From the NCBI GenBank assembly GCA_028692735.1, contig JAQUWS010000002.1:1-64000 (forward strand): 64,000 nt of DNA. Direction: 5' to 3'. A program made the translations under genes and the position numbers. Origin of the DNA: Candidatus Altimarinota bacterium. Lineage in GTDB: Bacteria > Patescibacteriota > Gracilibacteria > BD1-5 > UBA6164. Below the pieces are notes generated by a model. The model made no database searches. It saw only the letters and a program-made list of their open reading frames with translations, and was not told the origin of the DNA. Positions 1,482 to 54,635 of this stretch are shown one piece after another (position 1 is the stretch's first letter; every line of letters begins with the position of its first letter).

Positions 1482-3113
1482 ATGAACAAACAAACAAATG
1501 CCTTCACACTAGTAGAACTAATAGTAGTAATAGTTATCCTAGCAATTTTATGAACTATTGCATTCATAAGTTTTCAGTGATACTCTAGAAACTCAAGAGA
1601 CTCAGTAAGAATTGCTGATATAAATAGTACTAAAAAAAGTCTAGAAATCTTTATAACAAAATCATGATTTTACCCAACTCCAGACTGAGCTACAAATATA
1701 ACATATAGCTGAACAACCGTATGGGTAGAAGGAACAATATGAGTAGATGTTATAAAAAATATACAAAGTGTAAGTAAAGTGATAATAGATCCACTAACAT
1801 CAAACGAATATACATATAGTATAACAAGTAGTAAAACAGAATATCAAATATGAGCTATAAGTGAAGTATGATGATTAACAAACAACAAAATAATAAATAA
1901 CATATATGCAACAGATTTAAATAAAATAAATGCAGTAGCATACATAAGTTGAAACTACAATGAAAAGTTTACAAAAGTAAATACATGAACTATAAGTTGG
2001 ATACTAGCCCAACCAAGTATAATAGCAACAGATATTTGAAACTCAGATTTATGAAATATACTATCAAATAAGAAAGTTGTATTTAATAATTATTGAAATT
2101 ATCCGCATTCATACAATCAAAATAGTGCATGATGATTTAACTATACAAATTGAAATCCAATAATATTTACATGAACATTAGAAGAACTACACGAAGATAA
2201 TCAGAGAAAACTAGATTTTATGACAAATTTGAAACAAGCTTATATAAGTACAGATCTAGCAACAAATCCAATCTATGAAGATATAATGAGTCTTGATACT
2301 TCAAACGACTCTACTTGAACGATAAATCTTGCAATTAGCTATATTAACTCAAATAAATGAGGAATAAAACTTGAGCAATTACCATTATTATGAACCACAG
2401 CAATCATAAATGGAAATACAGGATCAATAACAACTTATGTTGTTTGAGATTGTGATTCTTCTTGACAACTACTTACATGATCAACAACATATTGAAGTTG
2501 TAATGCAAATGATATTATTGTATGTAGCTGAAATTGAGTTTGATATACAATATCATCTTGTAATATTTGAACAAATATTTCGGGAACATGAGAAAGTTCA
2601 TATTGAATATATTTTCAATGGTGAAGAAATAAGTGATTTTCTATTGATGATATAACTCAACAGACAACAAAAATTTCATGAACAATATGACTTAATGCTT
2701 CAACAGATACATATTGATTTGTTTGGAGTGAATCTTTGCCATCTCCACTTACTTGGGCATCAACAGATATAACTGATAATTGGTGAAGTTTAACTAACAC
2801 AAGTGAAGCAAGAAAATGACCTTGTGAAGAATGATATCATATTCCATCAAATCTTGAATGGATAGCTATAATATCAGCATGATGATGGGGAATGAATTGA
2901 ACCTGATTTATAAATGATATTAAAATTCCAATGGCATGACGGAGATATTATGCAACTTGAGTTGTTTGATATAAGTGAAGTAATGGGAATTACTGGTCAT
3001 CATCACATACAACAAATTATGCATATGAATTACAATATAATAATATATCAATATATCCAAGTTCTGCATCATACCGTGTAGATTGAAAACCTATTCGTTG
3101 CATCAAAAACTAA
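1482..3113 (+). CDS. Type IV pilin-like protein with C-terminal Fibrobacter-major-paralogue-like domain
   Basis: A 543-residue protein. The N-terminus MNKQTNAFTLVELIVVIVIL is a textbook class III prepilin leader: a short basic leader, cleavage before F, glutamate at mature position 5, then a hydrophobic helix. The central part (about residues 30-330) resembles a pilin headgroup. From about residue 365 the sequence (YFQWGRNKGF, later GYHIPSNLEW and a closing RCIKN) matches the pattern of the Fib_succ_major domain, which occurs on exported proteins of many bacteria. The N-terminal half closely resembles the pilin at 17588 and the C-terminal domain closely resembles the one at 15751, so this gene looks like a chimera of the two. 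The product should be processed by PilD and assembled on the cell surface. Confidence 0.9.
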
Positions 3114-17587: not shown

Positions 17588-19204
17588 ATGAAAAAACAAG
17601 CCTTTACTTTAGTTGAATTAGTTGTGACAATAGTAATACTAGCAATACTCTGAACAATTGCATTTATAAGTTTTCAAGGGTATTCTTGAAATTCAAGAGA
17701 CTCAGTAAGAATAGCTGATATAAATAGTGTAAAAAAGAGTCTAGAGTTATTTATAACAAAAACATGATTTTACCCAGATCCTGATAATGCAGGTACAATC
17801 ACATATAACTGAGCAATAGTATGGAAAGAATGAACTTTATGAGACACAGTAACAAGAAATTTAGAAAAGTTAGATAAAAAAGTTATTGATCCACTTACAT
17901 CAAATGAATATACTTATAGTGTAACAAATACAAAAACAGAATACCAAATCTGAGCAATAAGTGAGATGTGATGACTTTCTTCAAATTATGTAGAGAAAAC
18001 TTACGCTTTAGATTTAAGCAAATCAAATGTAGTAGCATATATATGATGAACATATAATGAAAAATTTATAAAAGTGAAAACTTGAAGTATAGACTTGATA
18101 CTGGCTCAACCAAGTATAATAGTAACAGATATAACAGATATAAATCTAACAAATATACTAACAAGTAAAAAATTGGTTTACTGAAATTACAAAAACATAC
18201 CACATTCTTACAACACACCTTGAACTTGATGATTTAATTTTGATATATCAAATCCAGTATTATTTAGTTGAACGTTAAATGAATTATTTGATGATGATAA
18301 GAAAGTAGAGTTTATGACAAATTTAAAAGAAGCATACAATTGAACAATATTATCAGAAGCTCCAATATATAGATGATTAATAGAAACAGATACAACAAGA
18401 GATTTGACAAATGCAGTAAATGAAGTAAATAAATATATAAACTCAAACATATGATGAATATGAAATGCAAAAGTAGAAAAAATAGCAATGATAAATGTAA
18501 AATGTTGAGCTTGATATAAAGTAGTAGTATGAAGTTGTATAGAAGAAAGTAAGCAATGAACATGTAGCTGATTACCAGCAAATTCTCAGTGGAATAGTGT
18601 ATCAACAATAACTCAAACAAAAAGTTGAGAACAATGGTTACCAAGCACAAATTGAACTTATAATACAGAAGAAAGTACAGAAGAATGTAGATTTGTATGT
18701 AGTGAATGATATGCTTGGAATTGAAGTAGTTGTATTACAGATGCGTGCAGTTGAAGCATCCCAACAAATGCAACATCAAATTCAACAAGCACTTGATATT
18801 GAAGTGGTCGGACTTACAATACAACAGCAGGAAAATGTACATTTCGTTGTAATTCTTGATATTCTTGGACTTCATGATCTTGTCAGCTACCAAAACTAAT
18901 TTATAACACACATACTGAAGCGCAATGTACAAGTTTATGATGAACAATTATATGAACATCACCGTCAGCATTTTGTCGTTTAACAAAAACCTCATGTCCA
19001 AGCTGATGGACTCAATACTTAAATTGGTATACAACATCATCAAAAACTTGTTGAAGTTGAACTAATTGCAGTAAATGTACTGTAACTTGATTATCATGGA
19101 GAAATGCAACAAAACCTTATTGTGAATATTGTACAACATGAGCAAATTGGGCAACAATACGGAATAAATGTTATGCCACAGTAACACAAGTATGATGTTA
19201 TTAA
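17588..19204 (+). CDS. Type IV pilin-like protein with cysteine-rich C-terminal repeats
   Basis: A 538-residue protein starting MKKQAFTLVELVVTIVILAI, a canonical prepilin signal. Residues 1 to about 240 closely match the N-terminal half of the pilin at 1482 (ADINS.KKSLE, DPLTSNEYTYS, LAQPSII). From about residue 300 the sequence changes to cysteine-rich repeats: CRFVCSEGYAWNGSSC, CTFRCNSGYSWTSGSC, then further C-rich units to the end (CGSGTNCSKCTVTG, CEYCTTGA). These resemble disulphide-stabilised repeats of surface adhesins. It shares a unit with the pilin at 15751 and ends at a strong palindromic terminator. Confidence 0.9.
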
Positions 19205-20348: not shown

Positions 20349-21131
20349 ATGACTTATTTAAATAGTTTTACAACAACAAATTACACAAAAGAAGAACAAG
20401 AAGCGACTACTTGAGTTGTTAACAGGGATTATTTAAATGAGAAAATAAACTCAATGTATCCATGAAAATCAGTAAATATGATAAAAGCATATGTAAAATG
20501 ACTCAATACATTTTTAGATGAGGTTGTATTAAAAATAGATAATGAAGTAGATCCAATATATTTTTTATATTATTTATACTACAATCAAAAAAAATCAATC
20601 TTGCAAATATCTTTAGTTTTAAATGACTTATGAGTTAATATATCAGAAGATACTTTATACTATTACACCCAAAAGTTTTTTTGATGGAAACTTAATATTT
20701 CAGATAGACAACTAACAACAGAAAGAAATGAAAGAAGATCTAATTGAATTTTAAATGATTGAGAATGAAAAAATATATTTTGAGTAAATGAAAAAATCGT
20801 TGAAATTATTGAAAAAGAAACAGCATATCTCATAAAGAAAATAGAATCTAAAACAAAAAAATGAGTTAATAACATCTTGCTAGAAGATCTTGATAATAAA
20901 AAGAATAAAATAGATAAACTCATCTACATTTTTGCAAATTATGGATTATTGAAAAATGAAACATTAAAAGAATTTTTAAACTTTTTAAAAGTTCTAAAAC
21001 ATAAGTGACTATCTGTTTGAAAAATAGCTAATATTTTTAATAATGTAATAAAAAATTTTAATCCCACAATTGACTTAAAAATAACAAACACAAATATAAG
21101 TTGGTGGATTTTAGGTATAGATAAAAAATAA
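20349..21131 (+). CDS. Protein of unknown function with possible helix-turn-helix
   Basis: A 260-residue hydrophilic protein. Residues 80-115 (ILQISLVLNDLGVNISEDTL then YYYTQK) look like a helix-turn-helix: a short helix, a turn at LGVNIS and a second helix. The rest is helical and charged, ending SWWILGIDKK. The YYTQK motif also occurs in the unknown protein at 9394. The next gene starts 8 bases after the stop, so it heads a three-gene unit (20349, 21140, 22334). A regulatory role is possible but not shown. Confidence 0.7.
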
Positions 21132-21139
21132 TACAAAAA

Positions 21140-22264
21140 ATGAACAAGATAAGAACAAATATAAATTATGGAAATGGAGTAAAAAAAATTGATAAGATTT
21201 TAAATGCCATAACAGACTGAAAAATTCATATTCAATCAAGTGATATACAAAAACAAGCTTGATTAGAATTACTTGGAACTTTAGATGATATAAAACTTCA
21301 AATTTTATGAGTTTTAGAGATAAGTTGAGATAAAAAAGAGTTATTAGACTTGATAGATGATTATAATAAAAACAAAGAAAATAAAAATGAATTAAGAAAA
21401 ATTTGAATCAAAATAATTAGATTAATCTTCAGACTAAAAACATCATTTGATAAACAAAATCAATCACTAAAAAAAGTTAAACTATCAGACGATGTAAAAA
21501 ATATAGTAAGATGATATTATACTAACGAAGAAAATTGAAATTTGATAGAATCTTTGCTGATTGAAAGAATTCTAATAGATTCTCTTGAAACAAAAGACAT
21601 AAATTTAATTCTAACTCCTGATTTACTAGATCATAAAAAAATAGATTTTATTCTAAGAATCATGTGAGATAATGATTTAAAAATATGAACTCAAGTAACT
21701 TTTACAAACTGAAAACATAAAAAAAGAAAGTTTACTGAAACAGAAAATTTAGCATATGAAATTGATGATGAAACAATAGATAATCCACACGAGGCACCAA
21801 TTTACAACTCAATCAAATTTAAAAACTTAAAACCTACTTATAATCCAGATTTAATATCATTTATATCAATAAGTGATAAATTTTGAAAAGAAATAACCTG
21901 ATCAGATAAACAAAGACTAAAAAAATCATTTTCAGCAAAACTTGAAAAAGATTATATTAAATCATTACAAGATTCGCTAAAAGATTATGAACAAGAATTG
22001 TTTAGAGATTTATCAGTGTGATATATTTTAGCATCAAAAGAAATAAAAACTTACCTAGAAACATGAGAATTAAAAAATCAAATTTCTATTCCAAATTCAG
22101 ATTATGTTATAAATATAAATAATAATAGTTCAAACATATTTGCAAAACTTGAATTTAATTGATTTGTATTAGCAGAGTTTACATTTTTTATCACAAATAA
22201 AAGTATTTCAAAATTTCATAGTAAACATATAAAAATTATTGATAGAAAACTTAAAAATAAATAG
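21140..22264 (+). CDS. Protein of unknown function, possible nuclease-like core
   Basis: A 374-residue protein. Around residues 160-190 the sequence LDHKKIDFILRIMGD is followed by KIGTQVTFTNGKHKK. A D in a strand followed about 15 residues later by a strand with Q.T is reminiscent of PD-(D/E)XK nuclease cores, but the match is loose. The C-terminal part has no recognisable feature. It begins 8 bases after the upstream gene and ends 69 bases before the giant gene at 22334. Confidence 0.7.
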
Positions 22265-22333: not shown

Positions 22334-25300
22334 ATGAACAAACAAATTCTTTGAATTGATACTACCTTATCACAACAAGAAAGAGATAAAATACAATCTT
22401 TTTCTATTTTATGACTAGAAAACAATTTCAAAGAATTAGTTTCATCTATTTTAGAACCACAAGAAATTGAAAAAAGTATAGAAGAAATAGAAAAAGTAAC
22501 AGATTTTTTAGATAATGAACTGATTAATTTTATCTTACTAGATCAAAAGAAAATTTTCTTTTATTTATGAGATATACAATCTGAGATAATTATAAATTGA
22601 AATTTGTGAGAAAAATTTATAAACAAATTGTTTCAAAAACTATTAACTGAACTTGAAAATTTAAACAGAAGTACTATAACATATATATCATCTCTAGCAA
22701 AAACTTGAAAAATAAACCAAACTTCAATTGATAAATTAAATAAAATCTTTGTTGATTTATTTGGATTTCTTAAATCCCAAAATACCAAAGAACGGGATGA
22801 AGTAATCGTAGGATTAATTGAAACTTGATTATTAACAGAACCAATATTAAATAATTCATTTGCTGAGTTATTTGTTGAATGAGAAAAAGAATACAAAAAA
22901 ACTTATAAAAGAGTTGAAGCTTTTATTAAAACATGAAAAATAACAAATGAAAACACAGATAATGCTTTTACTCAAATATTGAATCGAAAAGAAAATGATA
23001 CAAACGTAATAGAAAAAATTCTTTCAGAACTTATAAAATCAGGTAAAGTTTCTATTGAATTACTTAATTCAAAATTTGATGATATAATAAAACACTCAAT
23101 CAACGATAAAGTATGGATAAAATATATATTAATAAACGCGATAAATACAAAGCAAATAAGTAACACAAAAATCAACGACCTATTTGATAAAGCTGAAACT
23201 TTATTTCAAAATGTGATTGAGATAATGCCTGCACTCATAAAAACATGACAAATTGATGAAAAAAGATTAAATTTTTTCTTTAATTCAGCGTTTCATGTAT
23301 CAAAAAACTTTGATAACCGGGCAGTTTATATACTAACTCCATTAATTTGAACCTGAAAAATAAAAAAAGAAAAAATAAATGAGGTATTTTTAGAAATACT
23401 AAGTATAGCTTGAAGAGATTATATGAAAATGGGAGAGGGGATATCTATTCATGATAATACTAGTAATACATATTGGAGAACTAGTGTTTTACCAGAGATA
23501 GTTAAATTATGAATTGATAATCCAGAAAACATTCAAGCATACAAAGAATTTATAAAGAATTTTGTTACTGATAGTAAAAATATAATGAATGGTGTTGATT
23601 ATATTGATGATGAAAATATTAAAGAGATAGTTTCAGAAAAACATAATAAAAAGTTTTTAGAGATTATAGAAACAAATAAATTCAATGAGTTAAAAAACTC
23701 AAATTACGCATTACCAGAATTAATTAATACAAAGTTAATTACAAAGAAAAATCTATTACTACTTTTTGATACATTATTAAAAGATGTATCAAAAAATAAA
23801 ACAACTATTGGTATAGTTTTGCCTTTATTAATCGAGTTATGAGAAATACAAAAAGAAAAATTACAAGAAGTCTTTGATAATTTAATAGATATTTCACAAA
23901 ATGAAGGTAATTCAGACTTAGATCAAGTTATAATCAAAATAATAAGTGTTTTAGATCTTACTGACCTTCAAAAAAGTAAGCTAGATTCTCACATTATTTC
24001 GTTGATAAACTCGTTTAATGGTTGAAGAAATATACTTGCATGATACATAAAAACATGAAAAATCCATTTATTTAGAGAAAAAAATGAAGAATCTTTACTT
24101 GAAACTAAAGCAAAGTACAAAGAAAATTATAAATTATATAAAGATATTTTATCAAAAATTGATGGTAATAGTTTAAAAATGGTTATTTTCTTGAGGAACA
24201 ATTTTTTAAATATTGAAAAATTACAAAGCATAGATACTTTATTAAACTATGATATTTGAACAGGTCTTTTAATAGAAAACTTTGAGTTTATAACTAAAGA
24301 TAATGATATAAAAAATATTATGCTTAGATACTTCTCTATAGCTGTCAGATCTTGACTTTATGATGAGTGAATAACACACAAAAACATAAAATTACTACAT
24401 TATGAATTTACTAAAGATAGAAAATTAGAAAGACTTCCTATAACAAAAGAAGATTTTATAGATTATATGGATGAAGAAAAACCATTGTTTGAATTTCAAA
24501 AAGACAAAGATTTTGATTTTCCATGAACAAAGCCATGGACAAAAAAATGGTTTTTAGAAGATAAAAAAAGAATTAGGTACCTAAAAAGTGAGAAACTAAA
24601 AACTTTTGAAAAATTTTGAACTTACTTAGCAACTTGAATTATAGAATGAAGCCAATGATTAGATAACATAAAAATTTTTTATGAACATATTTTTAAAAAT
24701 ATTTCATACAAAGATAATAGGACAAATATATTACAATTATGAGAAGTTTTTAACTTGATTTTAAAACAAGGAAATTATGAAATATTTGATAAAATCTTAA
24801 ATAATTGATTCTGAAAAGAATTGAAAGATTTTATAGATACATACCACATAAAAGACAAGTGAAGAACTATAGTAACTCTTATGATAACAAAAGAGATAAG
24901 AGATAGTTTTCAGATCTTTAATGATAATAAATGAAAAGAACAAGTTGATTACTTAAAAATAGAAGAAGTTTTTAAGATAGTTCAAGAAAAACTAAAAAAA
25001 TATAGAAAAAAAATAGATCTATACAAAAATCAACAAATAAAAACTTCAATTTGACTTGAATATGAAGTTACTGAAAGTATTGCAAAATGATACTTAGAAT
25101 CAATTTGAAGTGATTATAAAAATGATATTGAGATTATATCAGAATATGCAGATGTAGCAGAGTGAAATGATGCAGTACATGAAATAGCAACAAACCCAAC
25201 AGATAATCCATATTTACTTATCTTAGAAATGAAATTACTTGATGATTTAGATTTTATAGACCTAAACTTCAAAAAAGAAGATTATGCAAAATGATCTAGA

Positions 25301-26533
25301 TGAGTTCATTTTACTGTCTGATGAGAACAATGAATATGATTAGATGAAAAAACAAATTTCATACAAAATATACTTATAGCAGGGAATTTCTGATGATTAA
25401 ACGCAGGAGAAGACGTAATTAATTTATGATTATATTCAACTATAACAGAGAAAATATATAATTGTGAAATATTGTTTTGAGATAAAGAAACAAAATGTGT
25501 AGAGTATAGAAGTCTTTGAATAGATAAAAAAGAACAGTTTGAAAGATTGATTATAAGTCTTTTTAATTTAAATATGACTTTACAATTAGCCAAAAAACAT
25601 CTTTGAAAGAAACTTGATTATTTATTTGGAGTAAGTAATCTTACTTTGGAAAAATATAAAAAGTTATTAATAAATTCATATAAAAAAAATCCAGATTTAG
25701 ATGAAAAGATTATAATCAATATTTTTGAGTATTTGAAATTGATAAAAGATATACATTTTATAATAAAAAGACATAATACAGACTTTATATACAACGAAAC
25801 AACCACTGTTGATAACCAAAGATGATTAAATAATTTAATTAATTTGATGGTTAGTACAAATCCAGTTATAGAGCTAATGAAAAATATAAATCTAAGTATC
25901 AATTTTTTTAAGACTATATTTGAAAATGAATTAAATTGAAATCCTATAAATTCTATTGAAGACTTTGAAGACGTATTAAAATCAAACTGAAAAGATATAG
26001 ATACTTTAACTCAAAGACAAAAACAAATTATCTATAACTGATACAGATTAAGAATCAGAAAGAATCTAGATACATTAAAAGCTGAAAACATAGAAATATA
26101 TGAAAATATAGAAATGTATTTAAATTGAAATATAGAAGAAACTATAAGAAAAATAACAAACAAAAAAAGATTTGATGAAGTTATAAAATCAAGTTGAAAA
26201 GATTTTGATACTTACATAGATTCATTATTTATAGAGTTGAATGACTTTGATAAAAAATCATCAACAGAACTAGTAAACCAATTTACACATATAAATAATC
26301 TTTTCATAAAAAAGGATTCTACAAATGCTCTTAGTATGTATGATACTACAAAAGAACAAACTTGAGAAATTATCTCAGACAGGAGATTATCAGAAACAAC
26401 AAGCTTTGATAAACTTGAACTTTGATTACCAGAAAGAGATTGACCTTATGTAATCCAATGAGCAAGTGACTCTATGCTAACCCAAGCAATACAAAAAAGA
26501 ATCCTAGAATTCAACAAAAATTTGCAAATTTAA
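22334..26533 (+). CDS. Giant repeat protein with a carboxylate-amine-ligase-like domain
   Basis: A 1399-residue single ORF, the longest in the window. Residues of about 115-570 contain repeats of about 36 residues with the core (L/F)IKTGKI....IN..F..IL. After a linker comes a domain at about 905-1090 with IGLEYEVTES, VHEIATNPTDNPYL, SRGVHFTVGGEQGIG and CVEYRSLGID. This spacing of E.E, E, H and R residues resembles the glutamine-synthetase-fold ligases (glutamate-cysteine ligase and amidoligase families), which join a carboxylate to an amine using ATP. The C-terminal 300 residues are helical and end in a short disordered tail. No signal peptide is seen, so it should be cytoplasmic. It is the last gene of its unit, just upstream of tRNA-Leu. 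The family assignment is inference from motifs alone. Confidence 0.85.
22680..24060 (+). repeat. Protein-level helical repeats inside the 1399-residue protein
   Basis: Repeats start near 22690, 22802, 22912, 23020, 23116, 23222 and 23331, about 108 bases (36 residues) apart, with weaker copies near 23491, 23703, 23818 and 24031. Consensus core: LIKTGKI followed by a 12-residue helix IN..F..IL. Examples are FIKTGKITNENTDNAFTQIL, LIKTGQIDEKRLNFFFNSAF and LIGTGKIKKEKINEVFLEIL. The DNA copies have diverged, so the repeats are old. Confidence 0.75.
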
Positions 26534-30853: not shown

Positions 30854-32560
30854 ATGACTAATACTTGAACATTTGCCCCATTACTAAACAAAAGAGATTA
30901 TAACGAAAATGAAAAAATAGTCTTAGAATACTTTTTTACAAATATAGATAAAAATATTTATTGTGCTAAAAATACTTTATCATACCAATTATGGGCTTTT
31001 TTAGTAGGACAATATTCTAGAAGTGATTTATCTATGAGAGATAGATTTTTACAATTATTTCAAGATAATGATAAAGCATTAGAAAAATGACTTATATCAA
31101 AAGAAGAACATATATCTTTAGATGATTTAGCTCAAGATATAAAAAACTCAAAATCTATAAAACTAGATTATTTTGAGCAAAGATCAAGTGACTTTTTAAA
31201 AAAATGGTGAGTAGATTTTTGACACAATAGCTTAAAAGATGCAGATAGAATTAGATTTGCAATAGAGTGAGTAAGTCAAGTATTTACAAAAGTTATAGAA
31301 TCTCCGTTTCCAGCTCTTTGAGATTTCCAAGAAAAATCAACAAGATACTTACATTTTTGAAAGGAATCGTTAATAATCCCTCAAGATTTACTTGATTCAA
31401 ATTATGCTAGTGATATAAAACAAATTTCAAATGATTTAATGGAAACTTATTTAAAAAGTTTTCCAATTGTTAGAAAAGCACTTGAAGATAATCAAATAGT
31501 AAAAAGGGAAGAGTTTACATCAGATAGATCATATGAAAATACTTTAAATGCTAAGATATTTGATATAGTAAGATATTTATTACCATCAAATGTAAGTACA
31601 TCACTTTGAGCATCTTTTTCCACTCGTACTCTAGAAAGTCATCTTACATACATGTTGAGTCATCCACTTCTTGAAGTAAGAACTATTGCTGAAACTATGC
31701 ATACAGAGGCTTTGAAACTTTCACCTTGATTACTTAAACATGTATGAGTTTCCGAGTATGAATTGAAAAAGAGACAAAATCTAGATAGATATACAAAAGA
31801 ATTATTTAGAACTATATTTGAAAAAGAAGATAATATAGAATTTTTTAAATGAATTGATGATAAAGATAGGGTAGACCTAGTTTTTGAATGAGATTTAGAT
31901 AATCAAATTTGTGCATCACTTTTATTTGAAAATTCTAGAAGTAAATGACTTTCATACAATGAGTGTCTCGACATAGTTTTGGAAATGGATAAAAATGAAA
32001 AAGAATATATTATGAAATTAGCTCTATGAGATAGATGAAGTCATGATCGTATGCCTAGAGCCCTACAACACTCTTCAGTTATGTTTGAGTTTTTAATTGA
32101 TTTCTGAGCTTACAGAGATATACAAAGACACAGAGCTTCATCACAATTATGGCAGTGAGCAACAGCAATTTCTGGTTATGATTATCCAGAATATATAAAC
32201 TTACCATGAATGGAAGAATTTAAAGATATGTATGATGATGTGATGGCTAAAGCTACTTTACTTGCAAATGATATAGTAAAAGAAAATACATATTTATCTG
32301 AATATGCTTGTGCACTTTGACATTTAGTGAGAACTACTTTTGAGATGAATCCATGACAATTAGCATACGTTATAGAACAAAGGACAACTCCATGGTGACA
32401 TCATAGTTACAGAAGATTATTTATAGAAGTATATAATCAACTTAAGGAAATTGCACCAATTTATGCAAAATACATAAGAGTATGAAAAGTTGAAGAAGAA
32501 TCAAGCAGAAAAATTCAAGAAGAAAAATCAGAAGTAAAAAGACAAAAACTGTGAATTTAA
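30854..32560 (+). CDS. thyX: FAD-dependent thymidylate synthase, duplicated (double ThyX)
   Basis: A 568-residue protein, about twice the usual ThyX length. The catalytic ThyX signature is in the second half: YRDIQRHRASSQLWQGA, the RHR...S motif, followed by RTTPWGHHSYRRLF. The first half carries a degenerate copy (RYLHFGKESLIIP and SRSDLSMRDRFLQLF). It methylates dUMP to dTMP using methylene-tetrahydrofolate, FAD and NADPH. Two-domain ThyX proteins are known to me from Patescibacteria. It lies divergently beside folA and upstream of terC. Confidence 0.88.
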
Positions 32561-51278: not shown

Positions 51279-54200
51279 CTAATTAAACTTAAATAATGCT
51301 TTATATCAAGAAGGTATTTTTGAATATAAAAATCTATATTTATCTTCTTCATTTGTAAGTTTTTGATTTTCTAATTCATCTTTAATACTTTGCAAATAAG
51401 AAAAATTACCATTTGTAACAAATTTATTATCAAATAAATATAATATAGTTTTATAACAATTAGTTAATTTTTGTACTCTATTTATTTCAGTACCATTTTC
51501 ATAACTTTCAAAATTTACTCAAGCCAATGCTAAATAAGTTTTCATATCCTTATCAGTTTTTTCAGATTTCTTATATAAATCAATCGCAGTTCTTAGGCAT
51601 AAACTATCACTATCTATTACTGATACTCTGTCAGAAGTCAAAGTTTTTAATAAATTTTCAAATCTAGTTGTCAATGTATGATTTGGATCTTTATCAATTG
51701 TAGGAGTATTTAAATCAAGTAATAGATATTTCATTCAAATCTTCTCAAAGTTATCAACTGTCTTATTTATATCTTTATCATAAACATAATCATCAAAATT
51801 AAAAACAAGAGAATCATCATAAAGTCTATAATTATTTTCGGTTACAAAATATTTTAAGAAAGTTCCTAATCTATAAATAATAGCATCACTCTTATAATCA
51901 GCTGATGGTGATAAAATATTTACATATATATCTTTTCTTATTTTTGTTAATAATTGTACCATATTTGTATATACTGGAGTATTATTAAGACTTGTTTGAA
52001 ATTTTTGATCATTTATAAGAGTAAATAATACTTGGTTTAAAGTATCAATATTATTAATTTGTTCTATAGCTTTAGTAATTCATGAATCAAATTTATTTCC
52101 AATCATAAAATCATAAATCTGCTTTTTATAATTATTTAAGAACTCTGCCTTTTTTTCATCTTTTATATTTAATTCATACAACACACTTAAGTAATCACTA
52201 TGATACATAAAAATAGCTTCATATTCCTGTATTTTTCATGATTTATAATGCATATAACTATCTTCATCAAAGTTAGCAAACATATGAGGAATAGTAGATC
52301 TAATAAAATATATAGAAATAACTACAAATATTGCAAGAAAATTAATAACTTTAACAGTATAAAAAGTTTCATTTGAGTCTATATTATTATCATCTATTGT
52401 TACGTAATAAATTCAAACTCAAATTAATATAAGTAAGTTAAAATATAGTATTATTCAATACCAAACAATTCAAAATGCAGCAATATCCCATAAGAAAATA
52501 TAAAAAGCAGCAAAAGCAAAATTAACTAAAAATAACTTCATGACTTTATCATTTTTATAATTTGTAGTCAGTTTAAAAAACAATAATGGAAGTAAAAACA
52601 CTAATAATATAAAAATATATCATAAAGGCAACTCAATTGAAGAGATTAAATTAGTTATCACAGTACTACTTCAAGGGAGTATTAAATACAATATTTCGAA
52701 AATGATTGCAAAATAAATAAAGAAGTAATAATATTTTTTGGTTAATGGTAAAAATAAAAACAAGATAGGCAATAACGCAAAAAATATATAAGTAATATCA
52801 GTATACTCTCATCTTTGATTAGTTTGCATTGATAAACTATATGGAAGTTTTAGATAATTATTTATTCATTTCTCATATCAAAAATATCTTCACATATCAG
52901 CATTTGCTGCTTGTCAATTTGCATCTAGTGATGTTCTTTTATTAATCTTATCTTGGATTTTCTTAAGTTCATCACTTGAATATATTTTTGAATAATCAGC
53001 ATTATATATAATTGATTTTCATCAAATTAAAGTTCAAACACTTAATCTTGATAATCATGACTCAGATACATTTTTTCCTAACCGAGGAATCAATGCTATA
53101 AATATTCAAACTAAAAATACTCATATAATTTGAAAAGTTTTTATGATATAATTTTTGTTATTTCTACTAAACTCAAATACAAACATAAAAAGTCACATAA
53201 CAAAAGAAACAACAGAAAAAATATTTACAAACAAAGCATTATCTTTTGGATATACTACATTCATCATATCCCATAAATGAAGTTTAGTAAAAACAGCGAA
53301 ATAGATTGCAAGATATCACAAAAATGCAATAAATCATATTCTATTAAATAAAATCAATCATAATACTGCAGATATCAACATAAGAGTCGTAAACTTTATA
53401 GCGAAACTAAATCATACAATTATTCAAGCTATAAACATAAAATAATAATCTTCTTTTTTAAAAAATTCTTTTTTTGAAACTTTTTTAAATAGATTTTTTA
53501 CACTAAACTTATTTTCATCAACTTCTAAATAATTGCTATCTGCAAAATAATCTTCTTTTTTAACAAATATGTAATAAATCATGTAAATTCAAATCAGGCT
53601 AATTGAAAACAAACCTATATCCAACTTCATATCTTTTCATAACTGAAATATAACCATAGGTAATGAAATAAATATTGTTATTAGTAATAAAGGAATGTTA
53701 ACAAACTCATTTTTTTTACCAAAAAAACTTTTTGCAAACATATAAAGTATTATAGATGCAAGAATTCATGAAAAAGTATTTAAATAAAAAGCTTGTGTTG
53801 TTGATCAAAACAAAAATCAAACTCAAGTATATATTTCCCATGCTTGCATTCATCAAAAAGAAATCATTTTTCAAGCAGCTGAAATTAGATGAGGTGTATT
53901 CATATATGAACCTAAATCATCCCATCAAATTGGAAAAGGCCTAAAAACTAAAATTAAGTTAGTACTTATTAATGCTGTTAATATAATAAAAAGAAATTCT
54001 GAAGTATATAAATTTATATTATTTGAAAACTCTATTTTTTTAGTAAAAAAAGTCTTCAGTAATTTTCAGGTTCATTTATATCAAAATATTATAAACAATA
54101 AAATTATTATAAAAAACAAATATAAATTATAAAATCAAAATAAGGCTCAGATAAAAAGTAATGCTACAAATGAAAAGAATCAAATTCACAGTGAAGATAA

Positions 54201-54635
54201 GAATTTAAAAGTATATTCCTCATCTTTAAATCAATTGATAAATCATAAAATTCTTCTTCAAAAACCATAAGAAGTTATAAATATAGTAGTTGGTAATATC
54301 AAGTATCATAATATTTTAAAAAACAGTCATATTCAATCAGCTCAAGAAAATCATTCCTTTGTTACGAAATACACTATACAAAGTAAAAATAAATGAACAA
54401 AGGCATAAAACAAAACTGTAAAATAATTTATTTCAATTTTATCACTTCTTTCATTGAATACATATAAAGATAATACCTTATAAATTATGTATATTATTAC
54501 TAAAGGCAATAAATATCCTTTAAATATTATTGTAGAAAAGCTTTCTGCGTGGAAAGAAAAAATACTATAATATGAAAAGATAGAAAAAGAAGAGAACACA
54601 ATCATTGTGAGCATCTTTATAATATATGAAACCAT
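51279..54635 (-). CDS. Giant polytopic membrane protein, possible GT-C-type glycosyltransferase
   Basis: An 1118-residue ORF without interruption. About the first 740 residues hold some 17-20 hydrophobic membrane segments. A short loop near residue 235 reads FRPFPIGWDDLGSYMNTP; an acidic DD pair in an early external loop is typical of GT-C glycosyltransferases (PMT, STT3, ArnT), which use lipid-linked sugars. From about residue 740 on there is a large soluble, helical C-terminal domain (for example MKYLLLDLNTPTIDKD, KTLTSDRVSVIDSDS). I recognise no specific family. It is transcribed alone from a promoter between 54636 and 54843. Confidence 0.8.

Follow-up and report, generated by a model that had tools for sequence, protein, structure and literature searches.

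A predicted glutamine-synthetase-fold module, putatively enzymatic, on an interchangeable helical-repeat arm in Patescibacteria

What might a protein of 1,399 residues do in a very small bacterial genome when its N-terminal part is built of helical repeats and its C-terminal part carries motifs of carboxylate-amine ligases? The question is raised by a gene in the 64,000-nucleotide stretch analysed here (the window; contig JAQUWS010000002.1 of a Candidatus Altimarinota bacterium). Translation with table 11 gave no long open reading frame at 22334-26533; with TGA read as a residue, the entire window opens up. Under table 25 (TGA = Gly, the SR1/Gracilibacteria code) the gene is a single frame with 57 in-frame TGA codons, open from 22331, so that the one 1,399-residue protein of the preliminary description is intact once TGA is glycine. 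Glycine was favoured over tryptophan because the TGA codons of the gene fall at conserved glycines, e.g. G907 of the G.E.E motif, which is TGA-encoded here and invariant in all 16 aligned family sequences, standard-code relatives included. No obvious signal peptide was seen by eye at the N-terminus, and the protein therefore probably acts in the cytoplasm.

Motifs and predicted fold of the C-terminal module

The motifs GLEYEV, HEIATNP, GVHFTVGG and EYRSLGI had been read as following the order of glutamine-synthetase (GS) fold enzymes. All four were found in that order at residues 907-1064 (Table 1), and the six residues E909, E911, E950, H992, E1057 and R1059 were unchanged in all 16 aligned sequences, whose catalytic domains are 31-73% identical to that of the window protein. 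Six residues of the C-terminal part (R1368, G1370, Q1375, G1376, M1381 and Q1387) were likewise invariant in the 16. The motif order is the same as that of E130/E132, E213, H270 and E358/R360 in E. coli GlnA, the roles of which we take from general knowledge of GS. HEIATNPTDN of the window protein resembles HEVATAGQNE of GlnA, and the E-x-R of motif 4 is comparable to that in RIEVRF of the same enzyme; outside the motifs, no sequence similarity to E. coli GlnA was detectable. Structure prediction and conservation together support placing E909, E911, E950, H992 and E1057 at the metal-holding positions of GS-fold enzymes and R1059 at the position that holds phosphate or substrate.

An AlphaFold2 (AF2) model of residues 690-1399, built from a shallow alignment of 12 rows, reached a pLDDT of 79 and a pTM of 0.78, with strands at 904-911, 950-952, 991-997 and 1055-1061 that carry the four motifs. 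In a Foldseek search of the PDB, ranks 1-9 were all GS, with weak E-values of 0.03-0.23, none below 0.001. In a second look with VIA, all 50 PDB matches listed were GS-fold enzymes, led by Dop (Z 9.5), YbdK (9.0), PafA (8.6) and GS (about 8); on this scale, where rows within 1 Z count as tied, values of 7-8 are typical of models without a clear match and the best value here is somewhat higher. Against Dop, YbdK, PafA and GS, the aligned range ran from motif 1 through the C-terminus. The top named matches among the viral structures of BFVD were amidoligases. Prediction and conservation thus support a GS-type fold for residues ~897-1399 of the model. The preliminary description, which had made a GS-type beta sheet the thing to look for, is borne out in this respect; its ligase-like domain at about 905-1090 is predicted to have a GS-like fold there, and the fold seems to extend over ~897-1399 with a helical insertion, part of which is missing from three family members (L034, L039 and L041).

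Table 1. Features of the giant gene and its predicted product (window coordinates)
Feature	Residues	Coordinates	Strand	Basis
Whole CDS, table 25	1,399 aa	22334..26533	+	Open only if TGA is a residue
Main block of 36-residue helical repeats	~122-373	22697..23452	+	Lag-36 signal; AF2 helix pairs; Foldseek alpha-solenoids
Second, degenerate stretch of the 36-residue repeat	~463-530	23720..23923	+	INTKLITKKNL at ~463; IELGEIQKEKL ~36 residues on
Conserved helical segment before the fold (PWTK.WFLE, ILQLGEVF, KGRTI)	~698-900	24425..25033	+	Conserved in relatives; mostly helical in AF2
Predicted GS-fold catalytic core, first part	~897-1095	25022..25618	+	AF2 strands; GS-fold structure matches
Motif 1, GLEYEV (E909, E911 invariant)	907-912	25052..25069	+	Sequence, alignment
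Motif 2, HEIATNPTDNP (E950 invariant)	949-959	25178..25210	+	Sequence, alignment
Motif 3, GVHFTVGGE (H992 invariant)	990-998	25301..25327	+	Sequence, alignment
Motif 4, VEYRSLGID (E1057, R1059 invariant)	1056-1064	25499..25525	+	Sequence, alignment
Helical insertion within the predicted catalytic fold	~1100-1275	25631..26158	+	Alignment; helical in AF2
C-terminal part of the predicted fold	~1276-1399	26159..26530	+	VIA ranges reach the last model residues; invariant residues

Searches of Pfam, NCBIfam and PDB sequences with the full protein gave nothing beyond chance. Weak matches to hnRNP_Q_AcD in Pfam, to CsrA in NCBIfam and, for the relative at L026, to mTERF and Radical_SAM in Pfam were set aside as effects of composition or repeats, and a PDB profile search returned only ribosomal L5 and similar (E above 0.005), which were dismissed. 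The Amidoligase_2 model (PF12224), which does detect phage tf amidoligase, had no match up to E = 10 in the window protein, nor any in five relatives; the GCS2/YbdK model (PF04107), which scores YbdK at 328 bits, likewise had none in the window protein. The Pup ligase/depupylase (PF03136) and GS (PF00120) models did not match it either, and its genome (~92% complete) held no match to PF00120, PF12224 or PF03136. With hhalign, no profile alignment to GS, amidoligase, YbdK or a Pup ligase reached significance, in a comparison that was underpowered, as controls aligning GS with amidoligase, YbdK and Pup ligase failed equally; against phage amidoligases the probability was below 1%, where the GS-amidoligase control also fails. 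PADLOC gave nothing, PHROGs yielded only chance-level matches, and a limited literature search turned up no description of a solenoid arm on a GS-fold ligase.

The repeat arm and its variation among relatives

In the N-terminal part, IKTGKI-type anchors were located at residues 122, 162, 198, 234, 270, 302 and 338, and again, more weakly, near 463. The self-similarity of residues 61-600 at a lag of 36 was -0.11, whereas the highest value among 200 shuffles was -0.44. An AF2 model of the arm (residues 61-649), built from the single sequence, was weak overall (pLDDT 57, pTM 0.45) and contained helix pairs that recur at intervals of about 36 residues over ~150-360, with local pLDDT of 70-87; its Foldseek list held many alpha-solenoids (importins, adaptins, designed repeats). 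The model thus has the tandem two-helix repeats of regular length that define an alpha-solenoid, at a low confidence that does not distinguish between the HEAT, TPR and PPR classes. Of the solenoid of LIKTGKI repeats that had been assigned to the N-terminal third, the 36-residue repeat stands, beyond all shuffles, while its regular block covers about one fifth of the protein.

Further members of the family were taken from GTDB contigs, and clear ones were found in nine other Patescibacteria genomes, the complete proteins measuring 1,002-1,747 aa. The architecture does therefore recur in related genomes, as had been anticipated, in the sense that the module is shared; the particular repeat does not characterise the family, and the N-terminal half varies. 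When N-terminal alignments were each compared with 12 shuffles, that with L036 scored clearly above them, those with L037, L038_4557 and L033 modestly above, and those with L034, L038_9877 and L039 at shuffle level. A repeat period of 36 was found in the window protein and L036, a weak one of 34 in L033 and one of 33, with a different motif, in the G097 member; in most other members no period was significant. Since N-terminal alignments and repeat periods differ while identity in the catalytic domain is retained, we regard the arm as replaceable and the module as the conserved part.

The family is rare and patchy, as profile searches matched 2 of 379 genomes in the phylum set and, in the class set, 7 of 353, with the window's own genome included. 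A single-sequence search of 99 genomes had given matches in seven, among them again the window's own; two of the seven were weak fragments. Viral contigs and phage and plasmid collections held no relative, and hence there is no sign of a mobile-element origin.

Several genomes or members showed individual features. The genome UBA6489 has six family copies, five of them in tandem; the tandem copies (L020 6331-15502, L021 1-13646) are 1,279-1,708 aa long with N-terminal halves that differ in length and sequence, and the sixth lies on a separate contig (L022). A second copy is present in the genome to which the window belongs, interrupted by a gap and by the end of a contig. In the G097 member an in-frame TAA (L026, ~7273) lies between the catalytic motifs and the C-terminal part, whereas a close relative in G552 (L090 2615-7771, 1,718 aa) is uninterrupted. 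The members at L034, L039 and L041 contain no in-frame TGA.

Proposed activity and competing explanations

We propose that the window protein is a GS-fold carboxylate-amine ligase mounted on an alpha-helical repeat arm that binds a partner, likely a protein, for modification, a tentative reading to which we assign a probability of roughly 0.45. It would represent a new GS-fold family on an interchangeable arm, putatively enzymatic and probably active, and our best guess at its activity is that it uses ATP to modify a protein held by the arm. By analogy with GS, PafA and GCS, ATP with Mg would phosphorylate a carboxylate, which an amine would then attack, with an amide or isopeptide bond as the product. 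The architecture further suggests that the fast-changing arm may bind the partner, most likely a protein, and hold it at the active site, and that paralogs with different arms may modify different targets.

A more specific version, possible but doubtful, is that of a one-polypeptide protein-conjugation enzyme in some Patescibacteria. It would be a GS-fold ligase with no sequence similarity to PafA that can be detected; solenoid arms that can be exchanged would serve as its built-in substrate receptors, and duplication would have given rise to target-specific paralogs. If the proposed ligase is real, a GS-fold ligase family absent from all libraries searched would sit in very reduced genomes that seldom retain GS itself (PF00120 is kept in 15 of 96 genomes of the phylum, the window's own not among them). 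The pairing of a conserved module with a freely swapped arm suggests how a minimal cell could aim one chemistry at several targets, and the module (residues 690-1399) is small enough for expression and assay, which makes the substrate question testable.

The strongest competing explanation, which we consider unlikely, is a GS-fold ligase whose product is a small molecule or short peptide, as in GshA and YbdK, with the arm as a scaffold or oligomerisation device only. Small molecules are the substrates of many GS-fold relatives, YbdK scores level with PafA in VIA, and the phage amidoligases that top the named BFVD matches are thought to make small molecules or short peptides. Most of the phage amidoligase genes that we fetched, however, adjoin amidotransferase or ATP-grasp genes, whereas no conserved biosynthetic neighbours accompany the family described here, and such free variation of the N-terminal half would be unexpected in a pathway enzyme.

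No neighbouring gene was consistently common to the family loci. The gene tgt lies near three of them at different distances, which looked incidental, and it was rejected as a partner. Two genes directly upstream on the same strand (20349-21131 and 21140-22264), without significant Pfam matches, may be co-transcribed with the giant gene; they were not found beside relatives. Elsewhere in the window, 1482-3113 and 17588-19204 encode large proteins with a type IV pilin N-terminal methylation motif, and at L036 the family gene is likewise flanked by pilin-like genes of a similar kind. A 568-aa protein at 30854-32560 has two stretches matching ThyX (Thy1) and appears to be a thymidylate synthase that was duplicated or extended, and a 1,118-aa membrane-protein-like ORF without a Pfam match lies on the minus strand at 51279-54635.

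The chemistry could also run in the other direction, in a Dop-type GS-fold hydrolase that takes a modification off instead of attaching it. Dop heads the VIA rows, and its fold is the one that PafA has too (PMC7947786). Rows within 1 Z are tied, however, and the fold cannot separate ligase from hydrolase; with no Pup ligase family match in the genome this explanation seems improbable. A catalytically dead module serving the repeat protein as a binding or sensing domain would be consistent with a rare family without known activity; we consider it decidedly improbable, as six motif residues invariant in 16 diverged sequences are unexpected for a pseudoenzyme. The shallow alignment, weak Foldseek E-values and lack of HMM support might suggest that structure prediction misled us and that the domain adopts some other alpha/beta fold than that of GS. 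This is very improbable given that sequence motifs and structure search concur and that, for several GS-fold families, the matched region extends from motif 1 as far as the C-terminus.

Comparison with known GS-fold enzymes

Under the preferred reading of a ligase on a partner-binding arm, four known groups invite comparison. The phage amidoligases (Amidoligase_2) share the G.E.E opening motif with the window protein, besides the structural resemblance and the difference in gene neighbourhood described above; in a class relative (G565, L043), an ORF weakly matching Amidoligase_2, below the cut-off, was seen beside phage-like genes. GS shares the fold and the motif order E.E / HE.AT / H / E.R of E. 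coli GlnA, whereas the window protein has no Pfam match to it and a similarity confined to the motifs. YbdK, of the GCS2 family, shares the fold with an rmsd of 3.9 over 200 residues at the Z given above; it is a protein of 372 aa with no repeat arm, unlike the window protein.

For GS-fold enzymes with proteins as substrates, PafA and Dop are the precedent (PMC3511204; PMC7947786). With the module they share the GS fold, at Z 8.6-9.5 over ~213-218 residues. They act with Pup, and to our knowledge they carry no repeat arm. Compared with both, the window protein has in addition a helical insertion within its predicted fold and a helical segment before it.
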